Assembly (NCBI GenBank): GCA_026707325.1
Contig: JAPOXA010000037.1
Coordinates: 62,001 to 126,000 of the forward strand
DNA from: Acidobacteriota bacterium
GTDB taxonomy: Bacteria > Acidobacteriota > Thermoanaerobaculia > Multivoradales > Multivoraceae
Reading direction: 5' to 3'
DNA length: 64,000 bases
Shown here piece after piece: positions 429 through 59,599 of this stretch. The notes below the pieces were generated by a model. It was not told the DNA's origin and made no database searches. It was given only the letters and a program-made list of their open reading frames with translations. Positions within the stretch are counted from its first letter, which is position 1. Each line of letters opens with the position of its first letter. The position numbers and the translations under genes are program-made.

Positions 429-2245
429 GCGGCCGCCAGGCCGCCACTGCGTTCCGGTGCGCCGGTCGGTGCGCGGGTCTTCTGACCCGCTGCCGCCGTA
501 GGCGGCTGACGAGGCGCGCCGGCCGCCAGGCCGGCTCCTTGTTGGCCGCCGCCCTCCTAACCGCCCCGGCCGCAGCGATCGTCTACGTCCTCCCCACCGA
601 CGACTCCATGGTCGAGCGCTCCGGGACGATCGTCTTCGGCGAGGTCCTCTCCGCGTCCACTGGCTTCCGTGACGGCTCGGCGTTCACGGAGTACACGTTC
701 GAAGTCGAAGAAGTCCTCAAGGGCTTCGTCCCGGGCGGCACGATCATCGTGCGGCAGCCCGGCGGCCGGCTTCCCGGCGGCATCGCAATGCGGGTCCAGG
801 GCCTCCCGATGCTGGCCGAGGGGGACCGGGTGCTGCTCTTCCTCGACCCTCTGGCCGACGCCTACCGCCCGGTCGAGCTCGCCCTCGGCGTCTTCTTCGA
901 GGTCCGGACCGCCCGGGGCCCGTTGCTGATCCGGGAACCGTCGCTTGACGGTGAGGTGACCCTGCCCGGCGACCCCGCGGCCGCGGACCGCGCTCGCGCC
1001 CGGCTGCCGCGCGATTCCTCCGCCTTCCGGCGCTGGATCGCGGCCCGCGCGACGGGCGTCGAGCGCTCCGCCGACTACTTCCTGGTCGATCCGCCGGAAG
1101 GCCCCATCGCGGTCAGGTCGCCGTTCACGGCGACGCGAAGTCCGGACGACTGCTTCCACGACGGCCTGCCGCTTCGCTGGCGGGAGTTCGACAGCGGCGG
1201 GAGCGCTGGCTTCACCGTCCAGGCCGGCGGTCAGCCCGGGGTCCGGGGAGGCGGCCTGTCCCAGGTCCGCACCGCAATGCGGGCCTGGAACAACGTCTCC
1301 GCCAGCCGTGCCAACCTGGTCCTTCACGGCACCTCGAACCGGGACTTCTACAGCGACACTGTCGACGGCGTGAACTCGATCTCCTACGAGGATCCGTTCG
1401 ATGAGATCGAGGGGACGTTCCGGCCGAGTGCGGGTGGCGTCCTCGCCGTCACCCACAGCTTCTTCTACTGCGACGCCTCGCAGGTCCCTCACCCGATCCC
1501 GGGCAACCGCTCGGTCGAGGCGCTCGAGCTGATCGAGTCGAACATCACCACCCAGGACGGGTTCGAGGACTGGCTGGCGCGCTCGCCGCATCCTCGCGAG
1601 AGCCACGAGGAGATCATGGCTCACGAGCTGGGCCACGCGATCGGAATCGGCCATCCCTGCGGCGACATCGCCAGCGGGCCGTGCGACGAGGTCACCGGCG
1701 AGGCGCTGATGCGGGCGAGGGCCCACGGCGACGGCCGCGGGGCGCGGCTCAACAGCGACGATCGGGCCGCGGTACGGTTCCTGTACCCGGTTCCCGAGCC
1801 TGAGCCCGAGCCCGAGCCCGAGCCGGAGCCCGAACCGCCGCCCGAGCCCGACCGGACTCTCGGTCCGCTGCCGGATCCTCCTCAGGGGCCCGGCTACACC
1901 GACTGCCGTCCGGAGATGGCGTCCCTGGTGTTCGACGGAGGCTTCAAGGTCGCCGTGTGCTACGAGACGGCGAGCGGGGAAGTCGGCGAAGGCAAGGCCG
2001 GCATCTGGGCGTCGGGCGAATCGGGCCTGCTCTGGTTCTTCAATCGCGACAACGCGGAAGTCCTGGTCAAGGTCCTGAACGGCTGCCATCTGACCGGCCA
2101 CCGCTGGGTGTACGCGGCTCCGGTCACCGACCTCGCCTTCAACCTCTACGTTCAGGGCGCCGACGGGAGGAACTGGAGCCACCACAACCGGCTCGGCGAG
2201 ACCGCGGCGAGCAGGAGCGACAACTTCGCCTTCCCGTGCAACTGA
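416..2245 (+). CDS. Secreted zinc metalloprotease (matrixin/metzincin-like) with C-terminal WFF...VLDGC domain
   Basis: A 609-residue protein if read from ATG 416. Its first ~40 residues are Arg-rich and encoded by a copy of the palindromic repeat family (467-535); a hydrophobic signal-like segment (LLAAALLTAPAAA) follows, so TTG at 539 or 542 is an equally good or better start. The catalytic signature HELGHAIGIGH, the HExxHxxGxxH zinc site of metzincins, lies at about residues 403-413. A Pro-Glu linker at about 460-478 leads to a C-terminal domain from about residue 492 that matches the preceding partial gene. Known of the family: secreted zinc endopeptidases with a Met-turn. Inferred: an exported protease whose C-terminal domain serves in secretion or surface association. 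The repeat insertion probably removed or replaced the original start. Confidence 0.85.
   Translation: MQQLGGRQAATAFRCAGRCAGLLTRCRRRRLTRRAGRQAGSLLAAALLTAPAAAIVYVLPTDDSMVERSGTIVFGEVLSASTGFRDGSAFTEYTFEVEEVLKGFVPGGTIIVRQPGGRLPGGIAMRVQGLPMLAEGDRVLLFLDPLADAYRPVELALGVFFEVRTARGPLLIREPSLDGEVTLPGDPAAADRARARLPRDSSAFRRWIAARATGVERSADYFLVDPPEGPIAVRSPFTATRSPDDCFHDGLPLRWREFDSGGSAGFTVQAGGQPGVRGGGLSQVRTAMRAWNNVSASRANLVLHGTSNRDFYSDTVDGVNSISYEDPFDEIEGTFRPSAGGVLAVTHSFFYCDASQVPHPIPGNRSVEALELIESNITTQDGFEDWLARSPHPRESHEEIMAHELGHAIGIGHPCGDIASGPCDEVTGEALMRARAHGDGRGARLNSDDRAAVRFLYPVPEPEPEPEPEPEPEPPPEPDRTLGPLPDPPQGPGYTDCRPEMASLVFDGGFKVAVCYETASGEVGEGKAGIWASGESGLLWFFNRDNAEVLVKVLNGCHLTGHRWVYAAPVTDLAFNLYVQGADGRNWSHHNRLGETAASRSDNFAFPCN
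467..535 (+). repeat. Short copy of the palindromic repeat family, in the 5' end of the metalloprotease frame
   Basis: Contains the core GTGCGCGGGTCTTCTGACCC, then a GCCGCC-GGCGGC hairpin and a GCCGGCC-GGCCGGC hairpin, in the same order as other short copies. The outer CTCTGG end has decayed. Confidence 0.75.
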
Positions 2246-3488: not shown

Positions 3489-5572
3489 AGTCGTTCCAAC
3501 GCCGGCCGCTGGAGGTCATCCTCGACACCACCGAGCGCTGCAACCTGAAGTGCAAGATGTGCTACTTCTCGGCGGTCGACCGGCTGCAGTTCCTGCCCTT
3601 CGACCGGCAGTTGTCCCGAAACGGCATGATGCCGCTGGAGACCTTCTCCCGGGTCGCGGCCGACCTCTTCCCCCGTGCCCGCCGGGTCGCCCTGGGCTGC
3701 GCGGCCGAGCCCCTGGTGCATCCGAAGTTCATCGACATCGTTCGCGAAGCCGGCAGCTACGCCGTTCCCGACCTGTGGTTCCCGACCAACCTGCTGCCGC
3801 TCACGCCCGCCAAGGCCGAGGCGATCTGCGAGGCCGGCGTGAAGACGGTCGGCGTGTCGATGGACGGCACGAGCGCGGAGACCTACGAGGCGATCCGGGT
3901 CGGCGGCAAGTTCGACCGGCTGATGCGTTCGCTCGACCTGCTGAACGAGGTCCGGCGCGGCGCAGCCACCGGGCTGCGGCTGATCTTCGTGTGGATGCGG
4001 ACCAACCGCGGCGATCTCGCCGACCTGCCGCGCTTCGCCGAGGAAGTCGGCGCCAGTGAGCTCGACGTCCGCTTCGTGGCGCCGACCGCTCATGTGAGCG
4101 CCGAGGACGAACTGCTCGACGACGAGGACCCCGGCGCGCTGCGCGCGGAACTCGCCGCCACGGCCGAGGACGCGGCCGCCCGCGGGCTGCGTCTCGTTTC
4201 CTACCCGGACTTCGACGACGGCCAGCGGGTTGACCTGCGCGGCCACCTGATGCGCTGGCGGGCGGGCCTCTACGACCGGCAGCGGCTGCGCGGCCGCTTC
4301 CGGACTGCTGTCGCCGGCTGCGCCTGGCCCGGCCACACGGTGGTGGTCCGGCCCAACGGCGCGGTCTCGCCGTGCATCTTCTGGGAAGAGCAGCCGATCG
4401 GCCTGTATCCGGAGACCTCGCTGGGCGAGGTCGAACGCTCGCCGTTGCTGGCGGAGATCGTCGATGGGCTGAAGAGTGGGAATCCGTGCGGGACTTGCAA
4501 TACCTGCACTGAGCGGAAGCATGCGCTGTACTTCCGGTTGCAGTGGCGGCAGCAGGCGGGGGAGCGGCTGGAGCAGTTGGGCGCGGGACCGGGGAGTGGT
4601 GGTGTGGCTGAGGTGGAAGAGGAGAGTGGTCGGCCTTCGGCCGGCGATCTGTCGCCGCCTGCGGCGGCAGCGGGTCAGAAGACCCGCGCACCCAGAGCAC
4701 CGGCTGCAGTAGGACGTCCCGACGACGGCAACGCCGATGCTCTGGGTGCGCGGGTCTTCCGACCCGCATCTACGGCCCCAGGGCTTCCCAGTCCAACCGC
4801 CTGGATCACGGAGCACACGCCCGTCGCGCCCTATGACCGCGTCCTCCTCGTAGGCGACGAAGCCTGGGCCCACCACCTCCTCAGCACCGGCTTCGCCAGC
4901 AGCGTCGACATCGTCACGTCGCCCCTGGCGGCCGGCCGCGACGAGGCCGGCATCCGCCGTCTCCCCATCCACCCCCGCAACCCCGTCCTCCCCGCCGCCG
5001 CCTACCAGGCCGCCTGCTGCATCGGCGGCCTCTCCTCCCACCTTCGGCTGGAGCGGCTCCTCGACGCCGTGCTCGACGCGCTGGAACCCGGCGGCCGGTT
5101 GTTCGTGGACGACTACATTGGCCCGGCCCGTCACCAGTGGAACGACCGCGTCGGCGCCGCGGCCTCGGCCGCCTACCGCCGGCTGCCGGCCGCGGCGCGG
5201 CGGTTCGAGCGACTGCCCATGCCGCCCGTGGAGGGCGACTGCGCGCGGGCCACCCGCTCCGGCGACGTGGCCCGCCTGATCCGCACCGGTTTCCGGGCCG
5301 AGTCCGTGCGCCCCTACGGCGGCGACCTGGTCGCGCCGCTCGCCGCCTCCGTCGACTGGAGCCGGCTGCCGGAGGCCGACCTCCAGCGCCTCGTGGAGGG
5401 CTCCGGCGCCGGTGGTCACTACGCCCTGACGGTGGCCCGTCCCCGCGCCGGTTGGCAACGGCGGTTGGCCGGGATGCGCTACCGCATTGGCCCCAAGGTC
5501 CGTCGTGTTTTCATTTACGAGCCCCGGCGCGCTCGCGACCTGGCATTCCAGGCGCTGCGCGGAAAGGTCTAG
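3485..5572 (+). CDS. Radical SAM/SPASM protein fused through repeat DNA to a methyltransferase-like domain
   Basis: Start chosen at ATG 3485, overlapping the upstream stop. Residues 19-26 read CNLKCKMC, the CxxxCxxC site for the radical-SAM [4Fe-4S] cluster. Residues ~275-345 carry further cysteines (GCAWPG, SPCIFW, CGTCNTC), typical of a SPASM auxiliary-cluster domain. The stretch from about residue 382 to 430 is translated from two facing repeat half-copies (4630-4697 and 4739-4767) with the telltale peptides GQKTRAPRA and LGARVFRPA. From about residue 445 a second domain begins (YDRVLLVGDE), with LLDAVLDALEPGGRLFVDDY resembling class I SAM-dependent methyltransferases. The fusion may be a recent joining of two genes. 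Whether one polypeptide is made is unknown. Confidence 0.8.
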   Translation: MKSFQRRPLEVILDTTERCNLKCKMCYFSAVDRLQFLPFDRQLSRNGMMPLETFSRVAADLFPRARRVALGCAAEPLVHPKFIDIVREAGSYAVPDLWFPTNLLPLTPAKAEAICEAGVKTVGVSMDGTSAETYEAIRVGGKFDRLMRSLDLLNEVRRGAATGLRLIFVWMRTNRGDLADLPRFAEEVGASELDVRFVAPTAHVSAEDELLDDEDPGALRAELAATAEDAAARGLRLVSYPDFDDGQRVDLRGHLMRWRAGLYDRQRLRGRFRTAVAGCAWPGHTVVVRPNGAVSPCIFWEEQPIGLYPETSLGEVERSPLLAEIVDGLKSGNPCGTCNTCTERKHALYFRLQWRQQAGERLEQLGAGPGSGGVAEVEEESGRPSAGDLSPPAAAAGQKTRAPRAPAAVGRPDDGNADALGARVFRPASTAPGLPSPTAWITEHTPVAPYDRVLLVGDEAWAHHLLSTGFASSVDIVTSPLAAGRDEAGIRRLPIHPRNPVLPAAAYQAACCIGGLSSHLRLERLLDAVLDALEPGGRLFVDDYIGPARHQWNDRVGAAASAAYRRLPAAARRFERLPMPPVEGDCARATRSGDVARLIRTGFRAESVRPYGGDLVAPLAASVDWSRLPEADLQRLVEGSGAGGHYALTVARPRAGWQRRLAGMRYRIGPKVRRVFIYEPRRARDLAFQALRGKV
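4630..4697 (-). repeat. Short repeat copy, reverse orientation, inside the radical SAM/methyltransferase frame
   Basis: Reads GGCCTTCGGCC, GCCGCC-TGC-GGCGGC and then GCGGGTCAGAAGACCCGC with the CACCCAGAG end, the reverse complement of the forward core. It is read through in frame. Confidence 0.85.
4739..4767 (+). repeat. Half copy (outer hairpin only), forward orientation
   Basis: GCTCTGGGTGCGCGGGTCTT followed by CCGACCCGC. It carries TTCCGA where most intergenic copies have TTCTGA, which keeps the ALGARVF frame open. With the copy at 4630-4697 it forms a tail-to-tail pair separated by 41 bp. Confidence 0.85.
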
Positions 5573-5575
5573 ATC

Positions 5576-7939
5576 ATGGTTGCCAACCTTCGTTGGGGAA
5601 TCCTCGGCCCGGGCGCCATCGCCCGCGTCTTCGCCACCGCGATCGACGGGCTGGACGGTCACGAGATCGTGGCCGTCGGTAGCCGCGACCCGCAGCGGGC
5701 GGTCAACTTCAACGCCGAGCGCGGCTACAGGGACGCCGAGGCCGGCACGTACCGGGATCTGGTGCGCAGCGAGTCGGTCGACGCCGTCTACGTCGCCAGT
5801 CCCCATCCCGGTCACCTGGAGCACGCGGCGCTGGCGCTCCGGCACTGCAAGGCGGTGCTCTGCGAGAAGCCGCTCTGCGTCAACGCCTCGGAGGCCCGCC
5901 GGCTGTGCGCCATCGCCCGCGAGCGGGGCCGGCCGCTGCTCGAGGCGATGTGGACCCGATTCCTGCCGGCGACGCAGCGGGCCGCGGACTGGATCGCCAA
6001 CGGCACGATCGGAGAGCCGAGCCGGGTGGTCTGTTCCTTCGGCTTCCGCGCGGCGTTCGATCCGGAGAGCCGGCTCTACGATCCCGAACTGGGCGGCGGC
6101 AGCCTGCTCGATATCGGCTGCTACACGCTGTCGCTGGCGTCGCTCGTCTTCGGGGAGCGGGTGACCGGCGGCAACATCCCGCAGATCGAGGTCCGCGCCG
6201 ATCTCGCTCCGTCCGGCGTCGACGAGCACTGCAAGATGGTTCTGCGCTTCGGGGACGGCGCCGAGGCGTACCTGGAGTCCTCGATCAGCCGGGCCGTTTC
6301 CGCCACCGGCGTCATCCAGGGCGACCGCGGGAGGATCGTGATTCCGGACTTCTGGCGCGCCCAGACGCTCAAGCTGGAGTGCGAGACGCAGGACGTCGCC
6401 ACACTGGAGTGCCCCTTCCTCTGCAACGGCTACGAGTACCAGGCGCTCGAACTCGCGCGAATGCTCCGCGACGGCGACATCGAGAGCCCTCTCCTGCCGC
6501 ACGCGGAGTCCATCGGACTGATCGAACTGATGGACGACCTGCGCCGCCGCATGGGCGTCCAGTACCCCTTCGAGCCAAGCATCGGCGTCACCGCCGGAAC
6601 CCACAGGGCCATGACCTACCGCCCTGTCGACAACGTTGCTCTGGGTGCGCGGGTCTTCCGACCCGCGGCCGCCGAAGGCGGCCAGGAGAACGCGCCGGCC
6701 GAAGGCCGGCACCACTACCCCTTCGAGCCAAGCATCGGCGTCACCGCCGGAACCCACAGAGCAATGACCTACCGCCCTGTAGACAACGTTGCTCTGGGTG
6801 CGCGGGTCTTCCGACCCGCTGCCGCCGAAGGCGGCCAGGAGAACGCGCCGGCCGAAGGCCGGCACCACTCTGCCGACGCACTACCCCGCCTCATCCTCGG
6901 CACAATGCCCCTCACCAACGAAACGCAAGCCGCCCAAACCGAAGCCGACAATCTCCTCGACGCCGCCTTCGAGAATGGACTCTCCGCCCTCGACACCGGC
7001 CACGTCTACGGCAACGGCGCCTCCGAACGCGCCATCGGCGACTGGCTGGAGCGCCGCGGTCTCGCGGACGACGTCTTCATCCTGTCCAAGGGCTGCCACC
7101 CGGACGCTGCGGGGCCGCGCGTCAACCCGGAGGCTCTGGCCCAGGACCTCGCCGAGTCGCTCGACCGGCTGCGGCTGCCGGCCGTCGACCTCTACATGCT
7201 CCACCGCGACGATCCGGCGGTGCCGGTGGGCGAGATGGTCGACGCCTTCGCCGAACACGTCGCGGCGGGCCGGCTGCGCGCCTACGGATTCTCCAACTGG
7301 ACGCGCGCGCGGATCGAAGAGGCCTGCGACTACGCGGAAGCCAACGACCGTCCGCTGCCCGCCGCGTCGAGCCCCAACTTCTCGCTCGCCGACCAGGTCC
7401 GGGACCCGTGGGGCGGGGGCTGCGCCACCCTGACCGGCGCGGCGGCCGCCGACGACCGCGACTGGCACCGGAGCACCGGCATGGCGATCTTCGCCTGGTC
7501 GTCCCTGGCGCGCGGCCTGTTCTCCGGCCGCGTCACCCGGCGCTCACTCGCGACCGACCCGAGCCAGGTCGACGAGGCCTGCCGCACCGCCTATGTCCAC
7601 GACGTGAACCTCGCGCGCCTTGACCGGGTGACCGAGTTCGCCGAGGCCGGCGGCGCTTCGGTGCCCCAGATCGCGCTCGCCTGGGTGCTCGCCCAGGACC
7701 TTCCCCTCCACGCCATCGTCGGCGCCGCCACCGAGCAGGAAGTCGAGGACCTGGCCGCCGCCGCGGCCCTGACCCTGACCGAGGAAGAAGAGAAGTGGCT
7801 ACAGAACGGCGGCCGCCGGCCCCTCTCCATGGCCCGCGAGAGCCTGGCCAAGCGCCTCGAACGCCAGGCCATCCGCATCGGCCGCCGCCTCCCCGGCCCC
7901 ATCAAGCGCCCCATCAAACGCCTCGTCGGCCGCGCGTAG
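5576..7939 (+). CDS. Gfo/Idh/MocA oxidoreductase joined in frame to an aldo/keto reductase
   Basis: A 787-residue frame starting 4 bases after the previous stop. Residues ~1-345 form a Gfo/Idh/MocA NAD(P)-dependent oxidoreductase: GILGPGAIA is the nucleotide-binding loop, ASPHPGHLEHA and LCEKPL the family motifs. Residues ~438-787 form an aldo/keto reductase: DTGHVYGNG supplies catalytic Asp/Tyr, LSKG the Lys, LHRDD the His. Between them sit two tandem copies of a 51-residue segment (6563-6715 and 6716-6868), each ending in a palindromic repeat copy read as LGARVFRPAAAEGG. Both domains act on sugars or polyols in known relatives, which suits the glycosyltransferase upstream. The joining looks like repeat-mediated fusion of two formerly separate genes; separate translation of the second domain cannot be excluded. 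Confidence 0.85.
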   Translation: MVANLRWGILGPGAIARVFATAIDGLDGHEIVAVGSRDPQRAVNFNAERGYRDAEAGTYRDLVRSESVDAVYVASPHPGHLEHAALALRHCKAVLCEKPLCVNASEARRLCAIARERGRPLLEAMWTRFLPATQRAADWIANGTIGEPSRVVCSFGFRAAFDPESRLYDPELGGGSLLDIGCYTLSLASLVFGERVTGGNIPQIEVRADLAPSGVDEHCKMVLRFGDGAEAYLESSISRAVSATGVIQGDRGRIVIPDFWRAQTLKLECETQDVATLECPFLCNGYEYQALELARMLRDGDIESPLLPHAESIGLIELMDDLRRRMGVQYPFEPSIGVTAGTHRAMTYRPVDNVALGARVFRPAAAEGGQENAPAEGRHHYPFEPSIGVTAGTHRAMTYRPVDNVALGARVFRPAAAEGGQENAPAEGRHHSADALPRLILGTMPLTNETQAAQTEADNLLDAAFENGLSALDTGHVYGNGASERAIGDWLERRGLADDVFILSKGCHPDAAGPRVNPEALAQDLAESLDRLRLPAVDLYMLHRDDPAVPVGEMVDAFAEHVAAGRLRAYGFSNWTRARIEEACDYAEANDRPLPAASSPNFSLADQVRDPWGGGCATLTGAAAADDRDWHRSTGMAIFAWSSLARGLFSGRVTRRSLATDPSQVDEACRTAYVHDVNLARLDRVTEFAEAGGASVPQIALAWVLAQDLPLHAIVGAATEQEVEDLAAAAALTLTEEEEKWLQNGGRRPLSMARESLAKRLERQAIRIGRRLPGPIKRPIKRLVGRA
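6563..6868 (+). repeat. 153-bp tandem duplication carrying the palindromic repeat (two units)
   Basis: Unit 1 is 6563-6715 and unit 2 is 6716-6868; the period of 153 is a multiple of three so the frame is kept. Each unit holds about 75 bp of oxidoreductase 3' sequence plus a repeat copy (6638-6710 and 6791-6863). Only a few substitutions separate the units (for example agggcc/agagca), so the duplication is recent. Confidence 0.95.
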
Positions 7940-7975
7940 GTGTGGGGGTGGTGTGTAGGTGTGTGAGGGGCGTTT

Positions 7976-8046
7976 CTCTGGGTGCGCGGGTCTTCTGACC
8001 CGCTGCCGCCGCAGGCGGCGTCGAAATCGCCGCCGGCAAAGCCGGC
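7976..8046 (+). repeat. Short repeat copy between the oxidoreductase fusion and ilvD
   Basis: Complete short form: CTCTGGGTGCGCGGGTCTTC, TGACCCGC, GCCGCC-GCA-GGCGGC, spacer GTCGAAATC, GCCGGC-AAA-GCCGGC. This is a good reference example of the short form. Confidence 0.9.
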
Positions 8047-8090
8047 GACCACTCCGGGAAGCTCTACCGCCTATGCCATAGTCCGCCGCC

Positions 8091-9767
8091 ATGATCCGCC
8101 TCAACCGCTACTCCGCCCGCATCACCCAGGACAAGTCGCAGGGCGCCTCGCAGGCGATGCTCTACGGCGCCGGCCTCACCCCCGACGACATGGGCAAGCC
8201 CCAGGTGGGGATCGCCAGCGTCTGGTACGAGGGCAACACGTGCAACATGCACCTGCTCGACCTCGCCGCCGCGGCCAAGGAGGGCGTGGACGGAGTCGAC
8301 TGCATCGGCCTGCGCTTCAACACCGTCGGCGTCTCGGACGGCATCTCGATGGGGACGGACGGGATGAGCTACTCGCTCCAGTCCCGGGACCTCATCGCGG
8401 ACTCGATCGAAACGGTGATGGCGGCGCAGTGGTACGACGCGAACGTGTCGATCCCCGGTTGCGACAAGAACATGCCGGGCTGCCTGATGGCGATCGCCCG
8501 CGTGGACCGGCCGGCGATCGTGATCTACGGCGGCACGATCCGCTCGGGCGAGTGGCGGGGCGGCAAGATCGACATCATCTCTGCCTTTCAGAGCTACGGC
8601 GAGGCGATCAGCGGAGCCCTGACCGACGACGAACGGGAGACGATCGTCCGCCGCGCCTGCCCGGGCGCCGGCGCCTGCGGCGGCATGTACACGGCGAACA
8701 CGATGGCGGCCGCGATCGAGGCCCTTGGCATGTCCCTGCCCTACAGCTCGTCGACTCCCGCGACGGCGCCGGAAAAGCTGGAGGAGTGCCGGCGCGCTGG
8801 CGCCGCCGTCAAGTCCCTGCTCGAACAGGACCTCCGGCCGAGCGCGATCATGACGCGGGCCGCCTTCGAGAACGCGATGGTGCTGATCACGGTGCTCGGC
8901 GGCTCGACGAACGCGGTCCTCCATCTGCTCGCAATCGCGCAGTCGGCCGGCGTCGACCTCTCGATCGACGACTTCCAGAAGGTCAGCGACAGGGTTCCCT
9001 TCCTGGCCGATCTCAAGCCCTCGGGGCAGTACCTGATGGAGGACCTGCACGACGTCGGCGGCACGCCCGCCGTGATGCGGATGCTGCTCGAACGCGGACT
9101 GGTCGACGGCGACTGCTTGACGGTCACCGGCAGGACGCTGGCCGAGAACCTGGCGCCGCTGCCGGACCTCGCGCCGGGCCAGGACGTCGTGCTGCCTTTC
9201 GACTCCCCGATCAAGGCCACCGGCCACCTTCAGATCCTTCGCGGCAACCTGGCGACCGAGGGTTCGGTGGCGAAGATCACCGGAAAGGAAGGCGAGCGTT
9301 TCGCCGGCCCGGCGCAGGTGTACGACTCGGAGGAAGCGATGGTCGAGGCGCTCGAGCGCGGCGAGATCCGGGGCGGCTCGGTCATCGTCATCCGCTACGA
9401 GGGACCCAAGGGCGGTCCGGGCATGCCCGAGATGCTGAAGCCGACCTCGGCGCTCATGGGCGTCGGCCTTGGCGACAGCGTGGCGCTGGTCACGGACGGC
9501 CGCTTCTCCGGCGGCTCGCACGGCTTCCTCATCGGTCACGTAGCGCCCGAAGCCCAGGAAGGCGGCGCCCTGGCCCTGGTCCGCGACGGCGACCGGATCG
9601 AGATCGACGCGGTGCGCAACACGATCGACGTGGCGCTCAGCGACGCCGAGCTGGAGGCGCGCAGAAACGCCTGGGAACCGCCGCCCCTCAAGGCGACACG
9701 AGGGACCCTGTACCGGTACGTCAAGACCGTCAGCTCCGCGTCGACGGGGTGCGTGACCGACGGCTGA
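8091..9767 (+). CDS. ilvD: Dihydroxy-acid dehydratase
   Basis: A 558-residue protein beginning [20 protein letters not shown]. It has the IlvD/Edd signatures GCDKNMPGC (about residues 122-130) and [19 protein letters not shown], whose cysteines bind the Fe-S cluster, plus C-terminal [19 protein letters not shown]. It converts 2,3-dihydroxy-isovalerate or 2,3-dihydroxy-3-methylvalerate to the 2-oxo acids in valine and isoleucine synthesis. Length is that of the family. No other ilv gene adjoins it; it stands between repeat copies at 7976-8046 and 9814-9959, so it is probably transcribed alone. Confidence 0.97.
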
Positions 9768-9813
9768 GACCGCGTTACAGCAACGTCGGCGGCCACGCAC
9801 AGCCGACGACGTA

Positions 9814-9959
9814 GCTCTGGGTGCGCGGGTCTTCCGACCCGCTGCCGCCCTGGGCGGCGTCGAAATCGTCGCCGGCCTCCGGCCGGCGGCCACTTTCCCC
9901 GGCCTCCGCCGCTCCGCGGCTCCGGCCACACGCGGGTCAGAAGACCCGCGCACCCAGAG
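9814..9959 (+). repeat. Long repeat copy with inverted ends, downstream of the RAYT-type transposase
   Basis: A 146-bp element. The left end reads GCTCTGGGTGCGCGGGTC and the right end is its reverse complement (GACCCGCGCACCCAGAG). Inside are the GCCGCC and GCCGGCC hairpins and a CCGCTCCGCGG hairpin. It lies 33 bp from the stop of the transposase gene. Confidence 0.92.
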
Positions 9960-9992
9960 AGGCGGCGTCGGCAGAGGCGGAGTCTGCGTGCT

Positions 9993-10598
9993 CTACCCGA
10001 AGTGACGATACCGCGCCGAGGACCAGGGCCACTGATGCGGTTCCCGGCAGAGGCCGGCTGCCACGGGGTTCTGCCGGATGTAGCGCTGCACGGCTTCGAG
10101 GTGGCGATAGTCGCGGATGAAGCGGTCGTAGTAGTCGGCCATCCAGAAGCTGCCGCTACGGCGGAGAATCCGGTTGGCGCGCCGAGCGGTGACGGCCTTC
10201 CACGCTCGCACGATGCCGGGCAGTGGCCGCTGCGGCTGCAACAAGACATGGACGTGGTTCGGCATGACGCACCAGTCGATGAGTCGATAGGCGTCGTCGT
10301 CGCCGAAGAGGAGCACTTCCTGAACCATCGAGGCGACAGCCGGCTGGCGTAGGTGGCAGGCGCCGTAGCCGGTGTCCTCGAAGCGGCTGACCAGGCGGTG
10401 GAGCTTTGCGGCGCGAACTTCGTCGCTGGACCGCTCGACTTCCGCGCGCCAGCGCTTCAAGAGGTGCTGCGGGACGCTGTCCGCCAGTCGGAATCCGACG
10501 TTCTGGAGCCGGCCTGGATCGTCGAGGTGTGGGTGGTAGCCCCGCCAATGCCAGCCGAGCGGCTTTCGTTCCTCCGCCAGATAGTTCGCGTCACTCAT
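9993..10598 (-). CDS. REP-associated tyrosine transposase (RAYT), Y1/HUH superfamily
   Basis: A 201-residue protein. Near the N-terminus HWRGYHPHLDDPGRLQNVGF and LADSVP match the start of RAYT-like IS200/Y1 transposases (usual form GYxPHxDxPxxxQxxTFRLxDSLP). The HUH nuclease motif is PNHVHVLL at residues 113-120 (His115, His117). The C-terminal helix YRHLEAVQRYIRQNPVAAGL, ending WPWSSARY, carries the candidate nucleophile (Tyr164 or Tyr173). Family knowledge: RAYTs nick and join single-stranded DNA at REP palindromes and are thought to spread them. Long copies of one palindromic family sit on both sides (9814-9959, 10666-10816), the usual RAYT/REP arrangement. It looks intact. Confidence 0.92.
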   Translation of the reverse strand: MSDANYLAEERKPLGWHWRGYHPHLDDPGRLQNVGFRLADSVPQHLLKRWRAEVERSSDEVRAAKLHRLVSRFEDTGYGACHLRQPAVASMVQEVLLFGDDDAYRLIDWCVMPNHVHVLLQPQRPLPGIVRAWKAVTARRANRILRRSGSFWMADYYDRFIRDYRHLEAVQRYIRQNPVAAGLCREPHQWPWSSARYRHFG

Positions 10599-10665
10599 TT
10601 TGTTCGTCCCTACCGCTGAAGGGAGGTACGAGCCGTGGCGCTGGAACGTCTAGCCGAAAGACTGC

Positions 10666-10816
10666 TCTCTGGGTGCGCGGGTCTTCTGACCCGCTTGCCG
10701 CCGCAGGCGGCCATCAACATCGTCGCCGGCCTCCGGCCGGCGGCCACTTTCTCCGGCCTGCGCCGCTCTGCGGCTCCGGCCGGTGGGCGGGTCAGAGGAC
10801 CCGCGCACCCGGAGAG
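10666..10816 (+). repeat. Long repeat copy with inverted ends, upstream of the RAYT-type transposase
   Basis: A 151-bp element in the same orientation as the copy at 9814-9959. The left end is GCTCTCTGGGTGCGCGGGTC and the right end GACCCGCGCACCCGGAGAG, slightly diverged. It lies 67 bp before the transposase start and fills most of the 10599-10913 intergenic stretch. Confidence 0.92.
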
Positions 10817-10863
10817 GGTGCCGTCGTTGTGCTGTGACTCCTGCTGCAGCCGGCCCAAACGAC

Positions 10864-10889
10864 GAAAGCGGGCCTTTCGGCCCGCTTTC
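10864..10889 (-). terminator. Intrinsic terminator of the small secreted protein gene
   Basis: An 11-bp perfect stem GAAAGCGGGCC / GGCCCGCTTTC with a 4-base loop lies 24 bp beyond the stop at 10914. The AAAG/CTTT outer stem serves either strand, so it could also stop leftward transcripts before the repeat and the transposase gene. Confidence 0.8.
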
Positions 10890-10913
10890 AGGAATCTGCC
10901 GCTGTGAGGCGGT

Positions 10914-11258
10914 TCAGGCGGCTTCGGCTGCGGTGACGGTAACGGTGACGGTGCCGTCGTCGGCCTTCATCGCCGTGCCGGTGACCTTGGCGTTCTTGCC
11001 GCCGAGACCCTCGAGGGTCTTGATCGCGCCGGCATCGGAGGCAGCGCGGTCAATCTTGACCACGTCGTCGCCGACGAGCAGGCCCATCTCGTTGCCGTCG
11101 CCCAGACACTTGGCAGCGCAACCGGCGTGACCGGCGCCCTTCTGGCCGTTGCCAAAGCAGACCATGTCGAGGACCTCGCCGGTCCAGGAATCGCCGGCGA
11201 GCGCCGGGGCGCCAAGCATCAACGAAAGGGCCAGTGCCGCGAACAGTGCCTTCTTCAT
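10914..11258 (-). CDS. Small secreted cysteine-containing protein
   Basis: A 114-residue protein with a clear signal peptide (MKKALFAALALSLMLGAPALAG). The mature part begins DSWTGEVLDMVCFGNGQKGAGHAGCAAKCL, with the pattern Cys...HxxCxxxCL followed by GNEMGLLVGDDVVKID; this resembles a small periplasmic domain family in Acidobacteriota (GWISDxxC...HxxCAxxC type, from memory). Function is unknown; three cysteines and a His could bind a metal or form a disulfide. The C-terminus is Thr/Val-rich (TVTVTVTAAEAA). A Shine-Dalgarno-like GGAGGACT precedes the ATG. It is monocistronic between repeat copies and ends at an intrinsic terminator. Confidence 0.85.
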   Translation of the reverse strand: MKKALFAALALSLMLGAPALAGDSWTGEVLDMVCFGNGQKGAGHAGCAAKCLGDGNEMGLLVGDDVVKIDRAASDAGAIKTLEGLGGKNAKVTGTAMKADDGTVTVTVTAAEAA

Positions 11259-11327
11259 GCTGAGTCCTCCATCGTGGGAGCGGTTCGGGGGAGAAAAGAC
11301 GAAACAGCCCGCAGGCTAACACAGTCG

Positions 11328-11417
11328 TCGCCGCTCTTCGGCCGGCGGCGGGTCAAATCGGGCTTCGCCGCTCCGCGGCGACGCCCGGAGCGGCTCAGAA
11401 GACCCGCGCACCCAGAG
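11328..11417 (-). repeat. Degraded repeat copy, reverse orientation
   Basis: Ends in GACCCGCGCACCCAGAG with internal CTTCGGCCGGCGGCGGGTC and CCGCTCCGCGG; part of the long form, reverse oriented. With the copy at 11449-11517 it fills most of the 286-bp gap between divergent genes. Confidence 0.8.
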
Positions 11418-11448
11418 GGTAGGGAATCTCGCAGCGGGAACAGGCCGT

Positions 11449-11517
11449 GCTCTGGGTGCGCGGGTCTTCTGACCCGCCGCCGCCGAAGGCGGCATCGAGA
11501 CGCCGGCCGAAGGCCGA
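11449..11517 (+). repeat. Short repeat copy upstream of the pseudokinase gene
   Basis: GCTCTGGGTGCGCGGGTCTT, CTGACCCGC, GCCGCC-GAA-GGCGGC, then CGCCGGCCGAAGGCCG. It ends 28 bp before the ATG of the next gene, so it forms most of that gene's leader. Confidence 0.88.
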
Positions 11518-11544
11518 CCGCCCAGTCGTGCCAACATCAACTCG

Positions 11545-12651
11545 ATGAAACCCGGCGACATCATCTCGCGCTTCCGCGTCCAGAACCCGCTCCATTGCCT
11601 TCCGGGGGAGTTGCCGCTGCCGCTGTACCGCGCACAGGACATCGCCGCCCGGTTCTGGGTGTTGCTGCAGCGCTACCCGGAAGACGCGCCGCGGGCTGAA
11701 GTCGAGGCGGCAGTCGACGACAACGAGGCGATGGTCAGGGAAGGGGCCGACGGCGACGAGGGTCCCGCGCCGCTGGTGGACTGGGCATTCGAGCCGCCGG
11801 CGCACCTGGCATGGCCGCTTGGCGGCGGGGAGACGCTGCGCCAGCGACTCCAGCGCTCGCCGCTCGGCCCGGAGCAGGCCGCCGAGCTGGGCCTCGCGAT
11901 CGCCAGGGCGCTGCGCACGCTGCACCGGTCCGGCGCGGTCCACGGCAGCCTGCGGCCGGCCAACGTCCAATTGCTGGAAGGCGGCGACGTGAAGCTGCTG
12001 GCGCCGTCGAGCCTGGGCCCGGTCACGCTGGCGATCGCCGGTGAGGCCGTCGAGTCGCCTGGCCTGTGGAGCGCGGCCTACCTCTCGCCGGAGCAGATCG
12101 AAGGCGCGGCCGCCGCGGTCACGGGCGACCCCGTGCCGTTCACGACCGCCGCCGATGTCTGGACTCTCGGCGTCGTGCTCTATGAACTCGTGACCGGCGA
12201 GCTGCCCTTCATCGCGAACACGTACGCGGCCATGCGCCGGGCGATCGGCATCCAGGCGGTCGACCTGACCGGCACGCTCCCCGGCAGCGCGCCCGAAGCG
12301 TTCGAGCCGGTGTTCGCTGCCGCGCTCGACCGCGACCTGGACCGGCGCCGTGCCGCGCTGGACGACGTGATCGGCCGGTTGCGCGGGATCCGGGATGAGC
12401 TCCGGCCCCGGTTGCGCCCCACCGAGGACAGCGTTTCCCGGGTACGCGCCCGCAAGTCCGCAGTTGCCAGCGACCGTTCGGTCGCGAGTCCACGGAAGGG
12501 AGAGTGGCAGTCCGCGATCGAGTCGCTGAACGACCGCAGGCGACGCCTCGCCCGGGAACGGCCCGCGCCGCCCCTGTGGCGGGTCCTGCTGCTACCGCTC
12601 GCGGTGCTGCTGCTGGCCGGCGCGGTGGCGGCGGTGTTCCTGCTGCGATAA
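11545..12651 (+). CDS. Membrane-anchored protein kinase-like protein, probable pseudokinase
   Basis: A 368-residue protein with a protein-kinase C-lobe pattern: HRSGAVHGSLRPANVQL in place of the HRDLKPEN catalytic loop, AYLSPEQI for the APE segment, DVWTLGVVLYELVTGELPF for subdomain IX. The catalytic Asp is Ser in HGSLRPAN, no DFG is evident (KLLAPSS at its place) and there is no glycine-rich loop at the N-terminus, so phosphotransfer is unlikely. A C-terminal hydrophobic helix (VLLLPLAVLLLAGAVAAVFL) anchors it in the inner membrane with the kinase fold in the cytoplasm. Inferred role: scaffold or sensor for a peptidoglycan, secretion or envelope process. ATG 11545 follows a repeat copy. Confidence 0.8.
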   Translation: MKPGDIISRFRVQNPLHCLPGELPLPLYRAQDIAARFWVLLQRYPEDAPRAEVEAAVDDNEAMVREGADGDEGPAPLVDWAFEPPAHLAWPLGGGETLRQRLQRSPLGPEQAAELGLAIARALRTLHRSGAVHGSLRPANVQLLEGGDVKLLAPSSLGPVTLAIAGEAVESPGLWSAAYLSPEQIEGAAAAVTGDPVPFTTAADVWTLGVVLYELVTGELPFIANTYAAMRRAIGIQAVDLTGTLPGSAPEAFEPVFAAALDRDLDRRRAALDDVIGRLRGIRDELRPRLRPTEDSVSRVRARKSAVASDRSVASPRKGEWQSAIESLNDRRRRLARERPAPPLWRVLLLPLAVLLLAGAVAAVFLLR

Positions 12652-12659
12652 GCCGCTTG

Positions 12660-12722
12660 GCGGTCGCCGGCCTTGGCCGGCGTCCTTCTCTCCGGCCTCC
12701 GCCGCTCCGCGGCTCCGCCCGC
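12660..12722 (+). repeat. Internal fragment of the repeat family between convergent genes
   Basis: Contains CGCCGGCCTTGGCCGGCG and CCGGCCTCCGCCGCTCCGCG, as in the middle of long copies, but no CTCTGGGTGCG end. It lies against the stop of the VWFA gene. Confidence 0.6.
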
Positions 12723-14441: not shown

Positions 14442-14573
14442 CGTTGTTTCCTCTTCGCGCTGCTCGTACTGCCGGTAGAGAAGACTACCGGCCCTTTAGA
14501 AGGTAGCAACAACCATGCCGCAGGCTTTGCTTCGGGTGGAACGGGCACCCAGAGGTCGCGTTACGCTCCACCG

Positions 14574-16754
14574 ATGCCCGCCGACCCGCCGCCCACCACC
14601 ACCCCCTACGGCGCCTGGCCATCGCCGATTTCTGCCCGGTCCGTCGCGGAAGGCGCCCGTCGCATCGACGACCTGGCCGCCGCCGGCGACTTCGTCTGCT
14701 GGCTGGAGCGCCGGCCCGAGGAGGGCGGCCGCAACGTGCTCGTCTGCCGCAACCCGGACGGCGGCACCCGCACCCTCACCCCCGACGGCTTCGACGTCCG
14801 CAGCCGCGTCCACGAGTACGGCGGCGGCGCCTTCCTGCTGATTGCCGGCGCGCCCGAACTGCCCCCCCACGCCTTCGTCAACTTCTCCGACCAGCGCGTG
14901 TACCTCGCCACCGCCGCCGGCACCGTCCCCCTCACGCCCGCCGACGGCGCCCGCTACGCCGACCTCGTCTTGGACCCCCACCGCCACCGACTCCTCGCGG
15001 TCCAGGAACGCCCCGCGTCCTCCGGCGGCGACGAGACCGCGGCCCTGGTGGCGATTCCGCTACCCGCGGACCTGTTCGGCGCGTCCGCACCCGCGGCCAC
15101 CGAGCCGCCGCAGCCAACCGAACTCGTGTCCGGCGCCGACTTCTTCAGCTCGCCGCGCCTGTCCCCCGACGGCAGCCGCCTCGCCTGGCTGAGCTGGAAC
15201 CACCCCGACATGCCCTGGGACGCGACCGCGCTACGGCTCGCCGACCTGGACGAGAACGGCCTGCCGCAAGCCACGCGCCTCGTCGCCGGCGGCGACCCGG
15301 AGCGCCCCGAAGCCGTCCAGCAACCGAGCTTCGACGCGCAAGGACGCCTCGTCTTCATCTCCGACCGCAGCGGCTGGTGGAACCCCTACCGCTGGGTGCG
15401 CGGGTCTTCTGACCCGCTGCCGCCGAAGGCGGCTTCGAAATCGTCGCCGGCGAAGCCGGCGGCCACTTTGCTTCGGGCTCCGTCGCTCCGCGGCTCCGCC
15501 CGAGGCGGGTCGGAAGACCCGCGCACCCAGAGCCTCTGCCCTCGCGATGCGGAGTTCGGCGTTCCGCCGTGGCTCTTCGGCATGTCCACCTGCGCGCAGG
15601 TGCCGGGAGGCATCGTCGCGGCCTGCTGCGAGCAGGGGGTGTGGGGGCTCGTCCTTCTTCCCGATGAACCTGCCGCGGAGCCGATCCCGATACCGACGCC
15701 TTACACCTCGATCACCTGGCTGCGCTCTGCCGCGGCCCCGGATGCGGGTCAGAAGACCCGCGCACCCAGAGCACGGCCGTGGGCTTCGGCGGAGCCCTCC
15801 ACCGTCGTCTTCCTCGGTGCCGCGCCGGACCGGCCAGCCGAAGTCGTCCGCCTCCGTCTCTCCCGCTCCGACGCCACCGAACCCGTCCCCGAACCCCAAC
15901 TCGACGTCCTCACCACCACCGGCCCAACGCCGGACCCCCGCTACCTCTCCACCGGCCGGCCCATCGACTTCCCGTCCGCCGAAGGCCGCCGCGCCTTCGC
16001 CTTCTTCTACCCGCCGAAGAACGACGACGCGCAGGCGCCGGAGAACGCCCGGCCACCGCTCATCGTCAAGAGCCACGGCGGCCCCACCTCGGCCGCCGAG
16101 CACGTCTACGACCCGGGCGTCCAGTTCTGGACCTCGCGCGGCTTCGCCGTCGTCGACGTGAACTACGGCGGCAGCACCGGCTACGGCCGCGCCTATCGCG
16201 AGTCGCTGCGTGACCGCTGGGGCATCGTCGACGTCGAGGACTGCGCCGCCGCCGCCGAGGCGCTCGCCGCCCGCGGCGAGGCCGACCCGGGCAAGCTGCT
16301 CATCCGCGGCGGCAGCGCCGGCGGCTACACGACCCTGGCCGCGCTCGCCTTCAGGGACACCTTCGCCGCCGGCGCCAGCCACTACGGCGTCGCCGACCTG
16401 GCCGCCCTCGCCCGCGACACCCACAAGTTCGAGTCGCGCTACCTCGACCGTCTGGTCGGCCCCTACCCGGAACGCGCCGACCTCTACCGCGAGCGCTCGC
16501 CGCTCGAAGCCCGCGACCGCTTCTCCTGCCCGGTCATCTTCTTCCAGGGTGACGAAGACCGCATCGTGCCGCCCAGCCAGGCCGAAGCGATGGTCGAGGC
16601 GCTACGCGCCAAGGGCGTCCGCGTCGACTACCACCTGTTCGAAGGCGAGCAGCACGGCTTCCGCCGCGCCGAGAACATCGTCCGCGCCCTGGAAGCGGAA
16701 CTCCACTTCTACCGCGAAGTCCTCGGCGTTGCTCTGGGTGCGCGGGTCTTCTGA
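14574..16754 (+). CDS. S9 family prolyl oligopeptidase with two in-frame repeat insertions and a repeat-encoded C-terminus
   Basis: A 726-residue serine peptidase, start at ATG 14574. The propeller part has LSPDGSRLAWLSWNHPDMPWD and FISDRSGWWNPYRW; the alpha/beta-hydrolase part has SHGGPTSA, the nucleophile GGSAGGY (Ser about residue 581), GDEDRIVPP (Asp) and EQHGFR (His). Residues ~273-320 (GSSDPLPPKAASK ... GSEDPRTQS) are encoded by a long repeat copy at 15391-15532, interrupting a stretch that continues LCPRDAEFG in relatives. Residues ~390-400 (AGQKTRAPRA) come from a half copy at 15744-15772. The last residues (ALGARVF, TGA) come from a third copy. The catalytic triad is intact, so it may be active with surface loops added, or it may be decaying. 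Confidence 0.88.
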   Translation: MPADPPPTTTPYGAWPSPISARSVAEGARRIDDLAAAGDFVCWLERRPEEGGRNVLVCRNPDGGTRTLTPDGFDVRSRVHEYGGGAFLLIAGAPELPPHAFVNFSDQRVYLATAAGTVPLTPADGARYADLVLDPHRHRLLAVQERPASSGGDETAALVAIPLPADLFGASAPAATEPPQPTELVSGADFFSSPRLSPDGSRLAWLSWNHPDMPWDATALRLADLDENGLPQATRLVAGGDPERPEAVQQPSFDAQGRLVFISDRSGWWNPYRWVRGSSDPLPPKAASKSSPAKPAATLLRAPSLRGSARGGSEDPRTQSLCPRDAEFGVPPWLFGMSTCAQVPGGIVAACCEQGVWGLVLLPDEPAAEPIPIPTPYTSITWLRSAAAPDAGQKTRAPRARPWASAEPSTVVFLGAAPDRPAEVVRLRLSRSDATEPVPEPQLDVLTTTGPTPDPRYLSTGRPIDFPSAEGRRAFAFFYPPKNDDAQAPENARPPLIVKSHGGPTSAAEHVYDPGVQFWTSRGFAVVDVNYGGSTGYGRAYRESLRDRWGIVDVEDCAAAAEALAARGEADPGKLLIRGGSAGGYTTLAALAFRDTFAAGASHYGVADLAALARDTHKFESRYLDRLVGPYPERADLYRERSPLEARDRFSCPVIFFQGDEDRIVPPSQAEAMVEALRAKGVRVDYHLFEGEQHGFRRAENIVRALEAELHFYREVLGVALGARVF
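15391..15532 (+). repeat. Long repeat copy inserted in frame in the S9 peptidase propeller
   Basis: A 142-bp element with inverted ends GCTGGGTGCGCGGGTCTTCT and GACCCGCGCACCCAGAG. It is read as VRGSSDPLPPKAASK ... GGSEDPRTQS, with no stop in the peptidase frame. Confidence 0.93.
15744..15772 (-). repeat. Half copy inside the S9 peptidase gene
   Basis: GCGGGTCAGAAGACCCGCGC followed by ACCCAGAGC, the outer hairpin of the family alone, read in frame as AGQKTRAPRA. Confidence 0.88.
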
Positions 16755-16920
16755 CCCGCTTGCCGCCGAAGGCGGCCGACAACCACACCGCCGGCAAAGC
16801 CGGCGACCAATACTGTCGCGAAGTCCTCGGCGTTGCTCTGGGTGCGCGGGTCTTCTGACCCGCTGCCGCCGAAGGCGGCGTTGAAATCACCGCCGGCAAA
16901 GCCGGCGACCAATACTGTCG
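16713..16920 (+). repeat. 104-bp tandem duplication with two short repeat copies at the S9 peptidase 3' end
   Basis: Unit 1 is 16713-16816, unit 2 is 16817-16920. Each starts CGCGAAGTCCTCGGCGTTGC (the last codons of the peptidase) and contains a short repeat copy (16731-16804, 16835-16906), then CGACCAATACTGT. The spacers between hairpins differ, so the units are not identical. The peptidase stop codon (TGA 16752-16754) lies inside the first copy. Confidence 0.92.
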
Positions 16921-17014
16921 GCCGTGGGGGCCTTCGCTAGACTCGCTGCGGCTCAGTTCCAGTCACACGAGACGGCAGCGTTCTCGACCGACGCCGACGG
17001 ACACCGAGACGCAG

Positions 17015-17110
17015 ATGGCTACCGAAACCCCCTCATCCCTGCAACTTCCGAGCCTGAAGATCACCGGGTTCCGCGGTTTCGACCACCTGACGATTCCTCG
17101 TCTGGACGGT
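17015..17110 (+). pseudogene. N-terminal fragment of an AAA/SMC-like ATPase, cut by a repeat copy
   Basis: From ATG 17015 the frame reads MATETPSSLQLPSLKITGFR then GFDHLTIPRLDG, the typical first strands of AAA_15/AAA_21-type ATPases (usual form xLxxxxIxNFRxFxxLxIxxLGxVNLIVGxNxxGKT). The Walker A that should follow is absent: sequence passes straight into a reverse repeat copy at 17111. Only about 32 residues survive. No continuation is visible in the next several hundred bases. Confidence 0.6.
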
Positions 17111-17185
17111 CGCCGGCTTCGCCGGCGGCGTGGTTGTCGGCCGCCTTCGGCGGCAAGCGGGTCAGAAGACCCGCGCACCCAGAGC
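17111..17185 (-). repeat. Short repeat copy, reverse orientation, truncating an ATPase gene
   Basis: Reads GCCGGCTTCGCCGGC, GCCGCC-TTC-GGCGGC and GCGGGTCAGAAGACCCGCGC ending CACCCAGAGC. It begins exactly where recognisable ATPase coding ends. Confidence 0.9.
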
Positions 17186-38987: not shown

Positions 38988-39130
38988 CTCTGGGTGCGCG
39001 GATCTTCTGACCCGCTGCCGCCGCAGGCGGTGAAGAAGTCGTCGCCGGCCGTTGGCCGGCGGCGGCTTTGTTCCGGTCTACGCCGCTTCGCGGCTGCGCC
39101 CGGGGCGGGTCAGAAGACCCGCGCACCCAG
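38988..39130 (+). repeat. Long repeat copy between divergent VWA and cysteine desulfurase genes
   Basis: A 143-bp element: TCTCTGGGTGCGCGGATCTT at the left, GACCCGCGCACCCAG at the right, inner GCCGCC and GCCGGCC hairpins. It occupies most of the 217-bp gap between two divergent genes, so it must contribute to or displace their promoters. Confidence 0.92.
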
Positions 39131-40322: not shown

Positions 40323-41524
40323 CTCGGGGCCGGGAGCGCGCCGCACGGCCCGCCAGCCCCGTCGCGGGAATGGGAGTGCTCTGGGTGGGCGGGTCCTCTG
40401 ACCCGCTCCGGGCGTCGCCGCGCAGCGGCGAGCCGCCGCTCACGGCCGTCGCGATGAGCGGCGGCCTCGACTCGTCGGTCGCGGCGCTCCTCCTTGAACG
40501 GCAGGGCGTGCCGGTCGTCGGTCTGTCCATGCTGCTCTGGGATCGCTCGCAGCAGGTCCGCCACGGCCGCTGTTGCGGCTCGCTCGACCTCGGCGACGCC
40601 CGCCGGGTCGCCGAGCAGATCGGCCTGCCGCACTACACGCTTCGCATGGACGGCGAATTCCGCCGGCACGTGGTCGACCCGTTCGTGGACAGCTACGTCG
40701 GCGGACGCACCCCGAGCCCGTGCATCTCCTGCAACACCGAGATCAAGTTCGAGGCCTTCCGGGAGCGGGCGCGGCGGCTGGGCGCCGGGCGCATCGCCAC
40801 CGGCCACTACGCCCGCATCCGCCGCGGCGAGGACGGGCGGTACGAACTCCACACGGCCGTCGACGAGTCGAAGGATCAGAGCTACTTCCTGTTCGAGCTG
40901 ACCCAGGAACAGCTTTCGCGGGCCGTCTTCCCGCTCGGCGAGCTGACGAAGGTCGAGGTGCGCGAGCTGGCCCGCGAGGCCGGTCTGGCTGTGGCCGAGA
41001 AGGGCGAGAGCATGGAGATCTGTTTCGTCGACCGGGGCGTGCAGGAGTTCGTCGAGAGCGAGCGCCCCGAGCTGCCGCGGGTGCCCGCTCGGGTGACGAC
41101 GACCGCCGGCGAGGAGCTGGGCGAAGGTGCGCCGACCTACCGCTACACCGTCGGGCAGCGTCGCGGCCTTGGCGTCGCCGCCGGCCGCCGGCTCTACGTG
41201 CTCGACGTGCAGCCGGAGGCGAACCGCGTCGTTGTCGGCGATCGCGACGAGCTGCTGGTCCCGGGCCTGGTCGGCCGCGGCCTGCACTGGATCGCCGGCG
41301 AGCCACCTGCCGACGGCGTCGAGCTCCAGGTCCGCATTCGCTCGCGCCATCCCGGCGTCGACGCGACGGTAGAGACCGGCGTCGCGAACGGCAGCACCGG
41401 CGCCTGCCGCGTCCGCTTCAGCGGGCCCCAGCCCGGCGTGGCCCCCGGCCAGGCGGCGGTGTTCTACCGCGGCACGCAGGTACTCGGCGGCTGCTGGATC
41501 GAGGGTGCGCTCGGCGCAGCCTGA
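40319..41524 (+). CDS. mnmA: tRNA 2-thiouridylase with repeat-derived N-terminus
   Basis: The MnmA core runs from TAVAMSGGLDSSVAALLLER (PP-loop SGGxDSS) through CISCNTEIKFEAF and GAGRIATGHYARI, KDQSYFLFELTQEQL, MEICFVDRG (second catalytic Cys) and YTVGQRRGLG to the C-terminal beta domain. It thiolates U34 of Lys, Glu and Gln tRNAs, using sulfur from the adjacent desulfurase. Read from ATG 40319 the first ~42 residues (GVLWVGGSSDPLRASPRSGE) are translated from a partial repeat copy; family members usually start 3-5 residues before AVAMSGG. The original start seems to have been displaced by the repeat. Confidence 0.92.
   Translation: MTRGRERAARPASPVAGMGVLWVGGSSDPLRASPRSGEPPLTAVAMSGGLDSSVAALLLERQGVPVVGLSMLLWDRSQQVRHGRCCGSLDLGDARRVAEQIGLPHYTLRMDGEFRRHVVDPFVDSYVGGRTPSPCISCNTEIKFEAFRERARRLGAGRIATGHYARIRRGEDGRYELHTAVDESKDQSYFLFELTQEQLSRAVFPLGELTKVEVRELAREAGLAVAEKGESMEICFVDRGVQEFVESERPELPRVPARVTTTAGEELGEGAPTYRYTVGQRRGLGVAAGRRLYVLDVQPEANRVVVGDRDELLVPGLVGRGLHWIAGEPPADGVELQVRIRSRHPGVDATVETGVANGSTGACRVRFSGPQPGVAPGQAAVFYRGTQVLGGCWIEGALGAA
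40378..40434 (+). repeat. Partial repeat copy in the 5' end of mnmA
   Basis: GCTCTGGGTGGGCGGGTCCT, CTGACCCGC and then CGTCGCCGCGCAGCGGCG. The outer hairpin is slightly diverged, and the inner hairpins differ from the common form. It ends about 10 bp before the MnmA core. Confidence 0.75.
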
Positions 41525-59505: not shown

Positions 59506-59525
59506 GACCCCTCGCTGCGGCGACA

Positions 59526-59590
59526 CTTGGTGCGCGGGTCTTCTGACCCGCCGCCGCCGAAGGCGGCCGAAAGACGCCGGCCGAAGGCCG
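59526..59590 (+). repeat. Short repeat copy between convergent genes
   Basis: CTTGGTGCGCGGGTCTTCTG, ACCCGCC, GCCGCC-GAA-GGCGGC and CGCCGGCCGAAGGCCG. It fills most of the gap between the amidohydrolase and the NtrC-type regulator and may act as a bidirectional terminator. Confidence 0.85.
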
Positions 59591-59599
59591 ACCGCTCGG

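Follow-up and report, generated by a model that had tools for sequence, protein, structure and literature searches.

What is the tyrosine transposase gene at 9993-10598 of the analysed stretch of DNA (64 kb, hereafter the window), and how is it related to the long palindromes that flank it and recur around it? A sequence-only reading of the window had proposed either a REP/RAYT-type domestication or a MITE-like system. In our study, the locus was best explained, with a probability of about 0.87, as a REP/RAYT (REPtron/REPIN) system, in which a single-copy domesticated Y1 HUH nuclease is accompanied by composite palindromes spread in trans. The answer bears on the route by which REP-like palindromes come to lie in frame within genes and on whether RAYTs are still moving them.

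The transposase gene and the repeats of the window

The RAYT gene and the repeat elements of the window were located as follows.

466..545 (+), short element of type A
4610..4698 (-), short element, also type A, lying in frame within the radical SAM/SPASM open reading frame 3413-5569
4743..4767 (+), solitary end unit in the same radical SAM/SPASM frame; GARVF frame, stop-free TTCCGA variant
6639..6717 (+), first of two tandem copies, a short element placed in frame within the linker region of the Gfo/Idh-AKR fusion gene 5576-7939
6792..6869 (+), second tandem copy in this linker; the 153-nt duplication includes host sequence
7976..8053 (+), short element between the Gfo/Idh-AKR fusion gene and ilvD
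9815..9960 (+), long element on the left flank, with inverted hairpins at its two ends and further hairpins inside
9993..10598 (-), type A RAYT gene encoding a 201-aa Y1 HUH transposase; HUH = H115/H117, invariant Y173 in the motif YIRQNP
10666..10816 (+), right flanking long element, oriented as the left one
11314..11417 (+), half element, inner hairpins and right end
11450..11525 (+), short element
15392..15532 (+), long element within the S9 peptidase gene, in frame; four relatives have its interior in reverse orientation at this site
15653..15771 (-), half element within the S9 peptidase gene, likewise in frame
16732..16812 (+), short element whose TGA terminates the S9 peptidase gene (..LGARVF, then stop)
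16836..16922 (+), tandem copy; 104-nt unit with host sequence
17079..17184 (-), short element
38988..39130 (+), long element
40383..40406 (+), degenerate end unit
59525..59593 (+), short element

The 201-aa product matched the Pfam family Y1_Tnp with 34.6 bits (cut-off 23). The NCBIfam model REP_Tyr_transpos scored 79.8 bits, 0.2 under its curated cut-off of 80, whereas transpos_IS200 scored only 23.5 bits (cut-off 55). The H115, H117 and Y173 residues were invariant across 20 homologues, and the NHVH and YIRQNP motifs matched the pattern of TnpAY1 subclass 2.7 (PMC6006769). An AlphaFold model of the protein had a mean pLDDT of 82.7 and a pTM of 0.75. The best solved match in a fold search with this model was the E. 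coli RAYT 4ER8, bound to a REP hairpin (E 1.3e-07), which was likewise the best PDB match in a sequence-profile search (6.7e-12). The protein was thus found to contain a Y1 HUH domain with its catalytic tyrosine and to be nearer to RAYT than to IS200. These family and structure matches bore out the HUH motif and fold that had been recognised from sequence, and the proposed Acidobacteriota origin agreed with the finding of close RAYT relatives in MAGs labelled Acidobacteriota, Thermoanaerobaculia or Holophagales. A marine-sponge association is a reading of the bin names. Plasmid records contained distant RAYT relatives only (<60% identity).

Both flanking elements contained inverted ends, and their direct-repeat segments were 93-97% identical; the bracketing of the gene by two composite palindromes in the same orientation was observed directly, at coordinates that the sequence-only reading had given correctly to a few bases. 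The 24-nt end unit GGGTGCGCGGGTCNTCNGACCCGC had 22 matches in the window, where 0.01 was expected from shuffles. These matches grouped into about 18 elements of long, short and half forms, as had been claimed, with tandem forms besides. The genome-wide count that had been proposed as a check gave 118 end units in the 5.1-Mb, 209-contig genome (<=2 mismatches; reversed control 0). All genome-wide repeat counts were pattern searches with 0-2 mismatches and miss diverged copies, because the patterns are fixed. Folding of the single-stranded DNA gave z-scores of -7.8 to -9.6 for the four long elements tested and -3.0 for the short form. No Rfam family reached its gathering score over positions 4000-18000. 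Several copies were found within genes or provided a gene's stop codon, which had been missed earlier.

The two duplications, 6639-6869 (153 nt) and 16732-16922 (104 nt), comprised an element and adjacent host sequence and were bounded by a CTCT-GGGTGC junction; these bounds are compatible with one-ended cleavage at a host CTCT. At the site 15392-15532, the interior of the S9 peptidase element lay in the opposite orientation in G010, G011, G012 and G013, by either inversion between the inverted ends or independent insertion.

Matched RAYT and hairpin types in the genus

The comparison covered 21 genomes of the uncultured acidobacterial genus in the searched collection, and the named relatives were all MAGs. 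The RAYTs of the genus fell into four clades (types A, B1, B2 and B3), each flanked by its own hairpin type, and this one-to-one match of clade and hairpin was observed directly. RAYT-A (>=90% identity) was present in G000, G005, G011, G016 and G017, and type A palindromes bracketed it in each of the five. The RAYTs at 65-71% identity had no type A unit nearby and were flanked by palindromes of the same plan with different stems; some of these type B loci extend to contig ends. The stems were GCGGGTC/GACCCGC in type A, GCCGGCC/GGCCGGC in B1, GCGGACC/GGTCCGC in B2 and GCCGGCG/CGCCGGC in B3. Read directly from these type sequences, four of the seven stem pairs were altered on both sides, i.e., they were compensatory.

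The check proposed earlier, whether RAYT phylogeny tracks repeat type, gave a positive answer: the RAYT tree, in which the B1 and B3 branches were weakly supported, required three type changes, the minimum possible, and none of 200 shuffles was as low. The cognate repeats were abundant where the own RAYT was present (0 of 20000 label shuffles as extreme), and the association persisted when shuffling was restricted to RAYT bearers (2 of 20000). Repeat abundance and RAYT type were therefore directly associated, and the repeats co-evolved with the gene. Type A was the least tidy; G010, G013 and G012 contained 181, 173 and 147 units, respectively, with no detected RAYT-A, and G010 and G012, which bear RAYT-B1 or B3, exceeded most RAYT-A genomes.

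Short tandem arrays of the hairpin-foot unit were found beside type B RAYT genes in G015 (L039:1162-1311) and G010 (L042:1357-1430), with periods of 39 nt and 12 nt.

Among 295 distinct units, the pair of bases at positions -3 and -1 before GGTGC was C..G in 197 and G..C in 91, with other pairs in 7, so that the two bases 5' of the hairpin foot changed jointly in 288. Types A, B2 and B3 mostly contained CTG and B1 mostly GTC before GGTGC; within A and B1, the minority form swapped both bases at once in nearly every case. The foot is therefore GGTGC after CTG or GTC, and not the GT[AG]G of the GTAG-type superfamily. In both IS200/IS605 and REP systems, the sequence that is cleaved interacts with a guide located next to the foot of the hairpin (PMC6006769), and a guide-target relation would for this reason be a natural candidate reading of the two-base switch.

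The RAYT was found in a single copy per type per genome, as a gene that does not propagate itself. In the five type A genomes RAYT-A occupied a common site just downstream of ilvD, where RAYT-B1 of G010 was also found, and pairs of RAYT-A had dN/dS values of 0.09-0.17. The gene is thus kept at one site under purifying selection, which fits domestication. The alternative is that the gene is a still mobile IS of the ordinary IS200/IS605 kind, and that the repeats, as its deleted derivatives, form a MITE family. A Y1 transposase with terminal repeats on both sides, and repeats with inverted ends, would be expected of such an element too. However, the single copy, the common site, the low dN/dS and the scores for REP_Tyr_transpos and transpos_IS200 given above all stand against it, and we consider it very improbable. 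No multicopy parent IS was found. Of the two proposals made from the sequence, REP/RAYT domestication was supported; for the MITE part, no target-site duplication was established.

In the REP/RAYT system preferred here, the RAYT would recognise a single-stranded end hairpin with a 7-bp stem and a 4-nt loop together with its 5' foot (C-n-C-T-G-GGTGC), and would spread non-autonomous REPIN-like composite palindromes of about 75 and about 150 nt in trans. Cleavage would probably occur beside the hairpin foot. No clean single-step filled/empty pair was found at the compared relatives' sites, because the sites were hit repeatedly or trimmed by deletions; the element boundaries, the target sequence and transposition itself are therefore putative. 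The purH gene, compared with that of the near-identical G020, had some native bases replaced.

Repeats without a detected RAYT were found in G013 (173 copies), G002 (59), G001, G004 and G020, which is the case that the sequence-only reading had named as refuting its idea. An absent RAYT can be an assembly gap, because repeats and some RAYTs sit at contig ends of the MAGs. Palindrome remnants with no gene were found in G020 and G013 at the site where relatives carry the RAYT, as deletion scars; in the G020 scar a solitary end unit joined the right flank directly. The loss of RAYT with REPs remaining has been described (PMC3686654, PMC3733652). The case thus occurs, and, because of these remnants and the published losses, the idea is not refuted by it.

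Crowding of repeats around the cognate RAYT

The type A units were crowded around RAYT-A. Contig C25 of G000, which carries RAYT-A, contained 45 type A units where 7.4 were expected, and 23 of them lay within 20 kb of the gene (0.9 expected). When units <=300 nt apart were merged into elements, 13 type A elements were found within 20 kb of RAYT-A in G000, where 0.8 was expected (p 2e-12), followed by 10 in G017 and 8 in G005 (0.4 expected in each). The clustering was weaker in G016, with 4 elements against 0.4 expected within 20 kb and 9 within 35 kb. In the three-contig genome G007, type B1 thinned out from 7.0 elements per 10 kb in the nearest 10 kb around RAYT-B1 to about 0.1-0.2 beyond 100 kb; these densities cover 100 of the 111 places and treat C2 as following on directly from the end of C1, in keeping with the gene order. 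Copies near the RAYT gene were mentioned in passing for Stenotrophomonas (PMC2817692).

The crowding could come from local transposition, or from a region that tolerates insertions or is subject to local duplication. The latter explanation has in its favour the host-containing tandem duplications at 6639/6792 and 16732/16836 and the position of both RAYT-A and RAYT-B1 near ilvD. However, the crowding was type-specific: type B3 of the same genome G000 had 3 units on C25, where 8.8 were expected, and 5 on C206, the RAYT-B3 contig, where 0.45 was expected. A general insertion hotspot on C25 is disfavoured as the cause of clustering, since type B3 was not enriched there. The clustering also persisted after merging of the elements, and the sequences flanking the elements differed between elements. 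A tolerant or duplicating region is therefore possible but doubtful. From the crowding around the own RAYT and not that of another type we infer local spread; in the REP/RAYT system the repeats would move by single-stranded DNA, with nearby sites probably preferred. The type-matched clustering offers a measurable readout of the sites of RAYT action.

A second focus, of six long type A elements similar to one another, occupied 14 kb of G016 (L134:4860-18420; C23:629-644 kb), with no RAYT detected nearby; a RAYT-centred picture leaves it unexplained.

Copies within genes and known systems

In the contig and the sample that were counted, the repeats were mostly extragenic. Judged by open frame and GC3, 6 of 34 type A elements on contig C25 were intragenic, compared with 54% of random windows, and genes therefore appear to be avoided; the same kind of count in a sample of G007 gave 2 of 28. 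The genes hit were purH (in the AICARFT domain), a phosphoglucomutase/phosphomannomutase (between domains I and II), the radical SAM/SPASM protein, the linker of the Gfo/Idh-AKR fusion and the S9 peptidase. The insert length was 0 mod 3 at every locus compared in purH (33-120 nt) and in the phosphohexomutase (51-171 nt), and 2 mod 3 in 13 of 13 linkers of the Gfo/Idh-AKR fusion (29-269 nt). At the first S9 peptidase site, the lengths belonged nearly all to one residue class by our own reading, whereas two noncoding sites showed all three residues. Part of the length variation comes from ordinary indels rather than from the repeats, and these keep the frame too; the observation is accordingly that the genes remain open, with the inserts in register. 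Some genes were terminated by an element, with ..GARVF and a stop, including the S9 peptidase in G000, G011, G005 and G002. All six in-gene copies in the GARVF frame carried the stop-free TTCCGA variant, which is not independent evidence of selection because an open gene entails it.

The in-gene copies might be taken for pseudogenes or annotation artefacts rather than translated inserts, the more so as the composition of the elements leaves most frames stop-free, which makes an open frame alone weak proof. Against this, the frame was kept genus-wide at purH, the phosphohexomutase and the linker while insert lengths varied several-fold, Pfam domains lay on either side of the inserts or spanned them, and purH is normally required for purine synthesis. 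We regard this explanation as very improbable. In the REP/RAYT system, selection would purge out-of-frame insertions and spare in-frame ones, which would be translated into loops or linkers. Transposition as such, its local bias and any gain from the repeats are likewise putative. A further proposal, that a host-retained RAYT inserts repeats preferentially near itself and that these, being legible in almost any frame, steadily feed new in-frame loops and linkers into nearby proteins, with the C..G/G..C code of the foot setting the targets and switching with type, seems to us rather unlikely.

The system shares a Y1 HUH gene, cognate flanking palindromes, many dispersed copies, RAYT-REP co-evolution, a correlation with cognate copies and RAYT loss leaving REPs with gammaproteobacterial REPtrons (Nunvar 2010, PMC2817692; Nunvar 2013, PMC3686654). 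Unlike these, it occurs in Acidobacteriota, its foot is not GT[AG]G, its flanking elements are composite with inner hairpins, its repeats crowd at the RAYT and some lie in frame in genes. It resembles REPINs (Bertels and Rainey 2011, PMC3116915) in that a pair of end palindromes in inverted orientation makes up a single miniature mobile unit, whereas here the unit is about 150 nt long with further inner hairpins, and single-end short forms are common. In-frame palindromes in housekeeping genes and repeat-supplied stops are shared with intragenic REPs and Rickettsia palindromic elements (Di Nocera 2013, PMC3733652; review PMC10969869), the likeness to the latter being in in-frame insertion behaviour only and taken from the literature. 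No transposase gene accompanies the CGTC-type repeats found inside genes of Rickettsia conorii (PMC3733652), whereas here a cognate RAYT is in the genome and frame-keeping is documented genus-wide. TIRtrons/TIRYTs, including an Acidobacteria group (PMC3733652), share by description a tyrosine transposase and non-canonical flanking repeats. TnpAY1 subclass 2.7 shares the NHVH and YI[LR][NQ]NP motifs but was described with canonical GT[AG]G REPs (PMC6006769), in contrast to the non-canonical foot here.

Previous studies have thus described RAYT-flanking REPs, co-evolution and RAYT loss, as well as intragenic REPs (most in Opitutus terrae and Rickettsia conorii), REP-supplied stops and the TIRYTs of Acidobacteria (PMC2817692, PMC3686654, PMC3733652). 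Within the open-access literature searched, the combination of features in one genus appears to be new, as do the two-base switch at a non-canonical foot, the crowding by type and the record of frame-keeping across the genus. The specificity, locality and cost of the system are directly testable, because the transposase, its cognate repeats, four type pairs, coding insertions and RAYT-loss scars co-occur in a single genus with 21 sequenced species.

A related RAYT was found in frame within an isochorismate-synthase-like gene of two Opitutales MAGs (L102:5320-7491 and L103:5105-6433). In L103 the contig end was reached before the second domain; L102 contained a single 724-aa open frame with both Y1_Tnp and Chorismate_bind domains. 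Both RAYTs were flanked by repeat-encoded peptides, e.g., GGTGILPVSLLEKAHGQDAHAT in L102.
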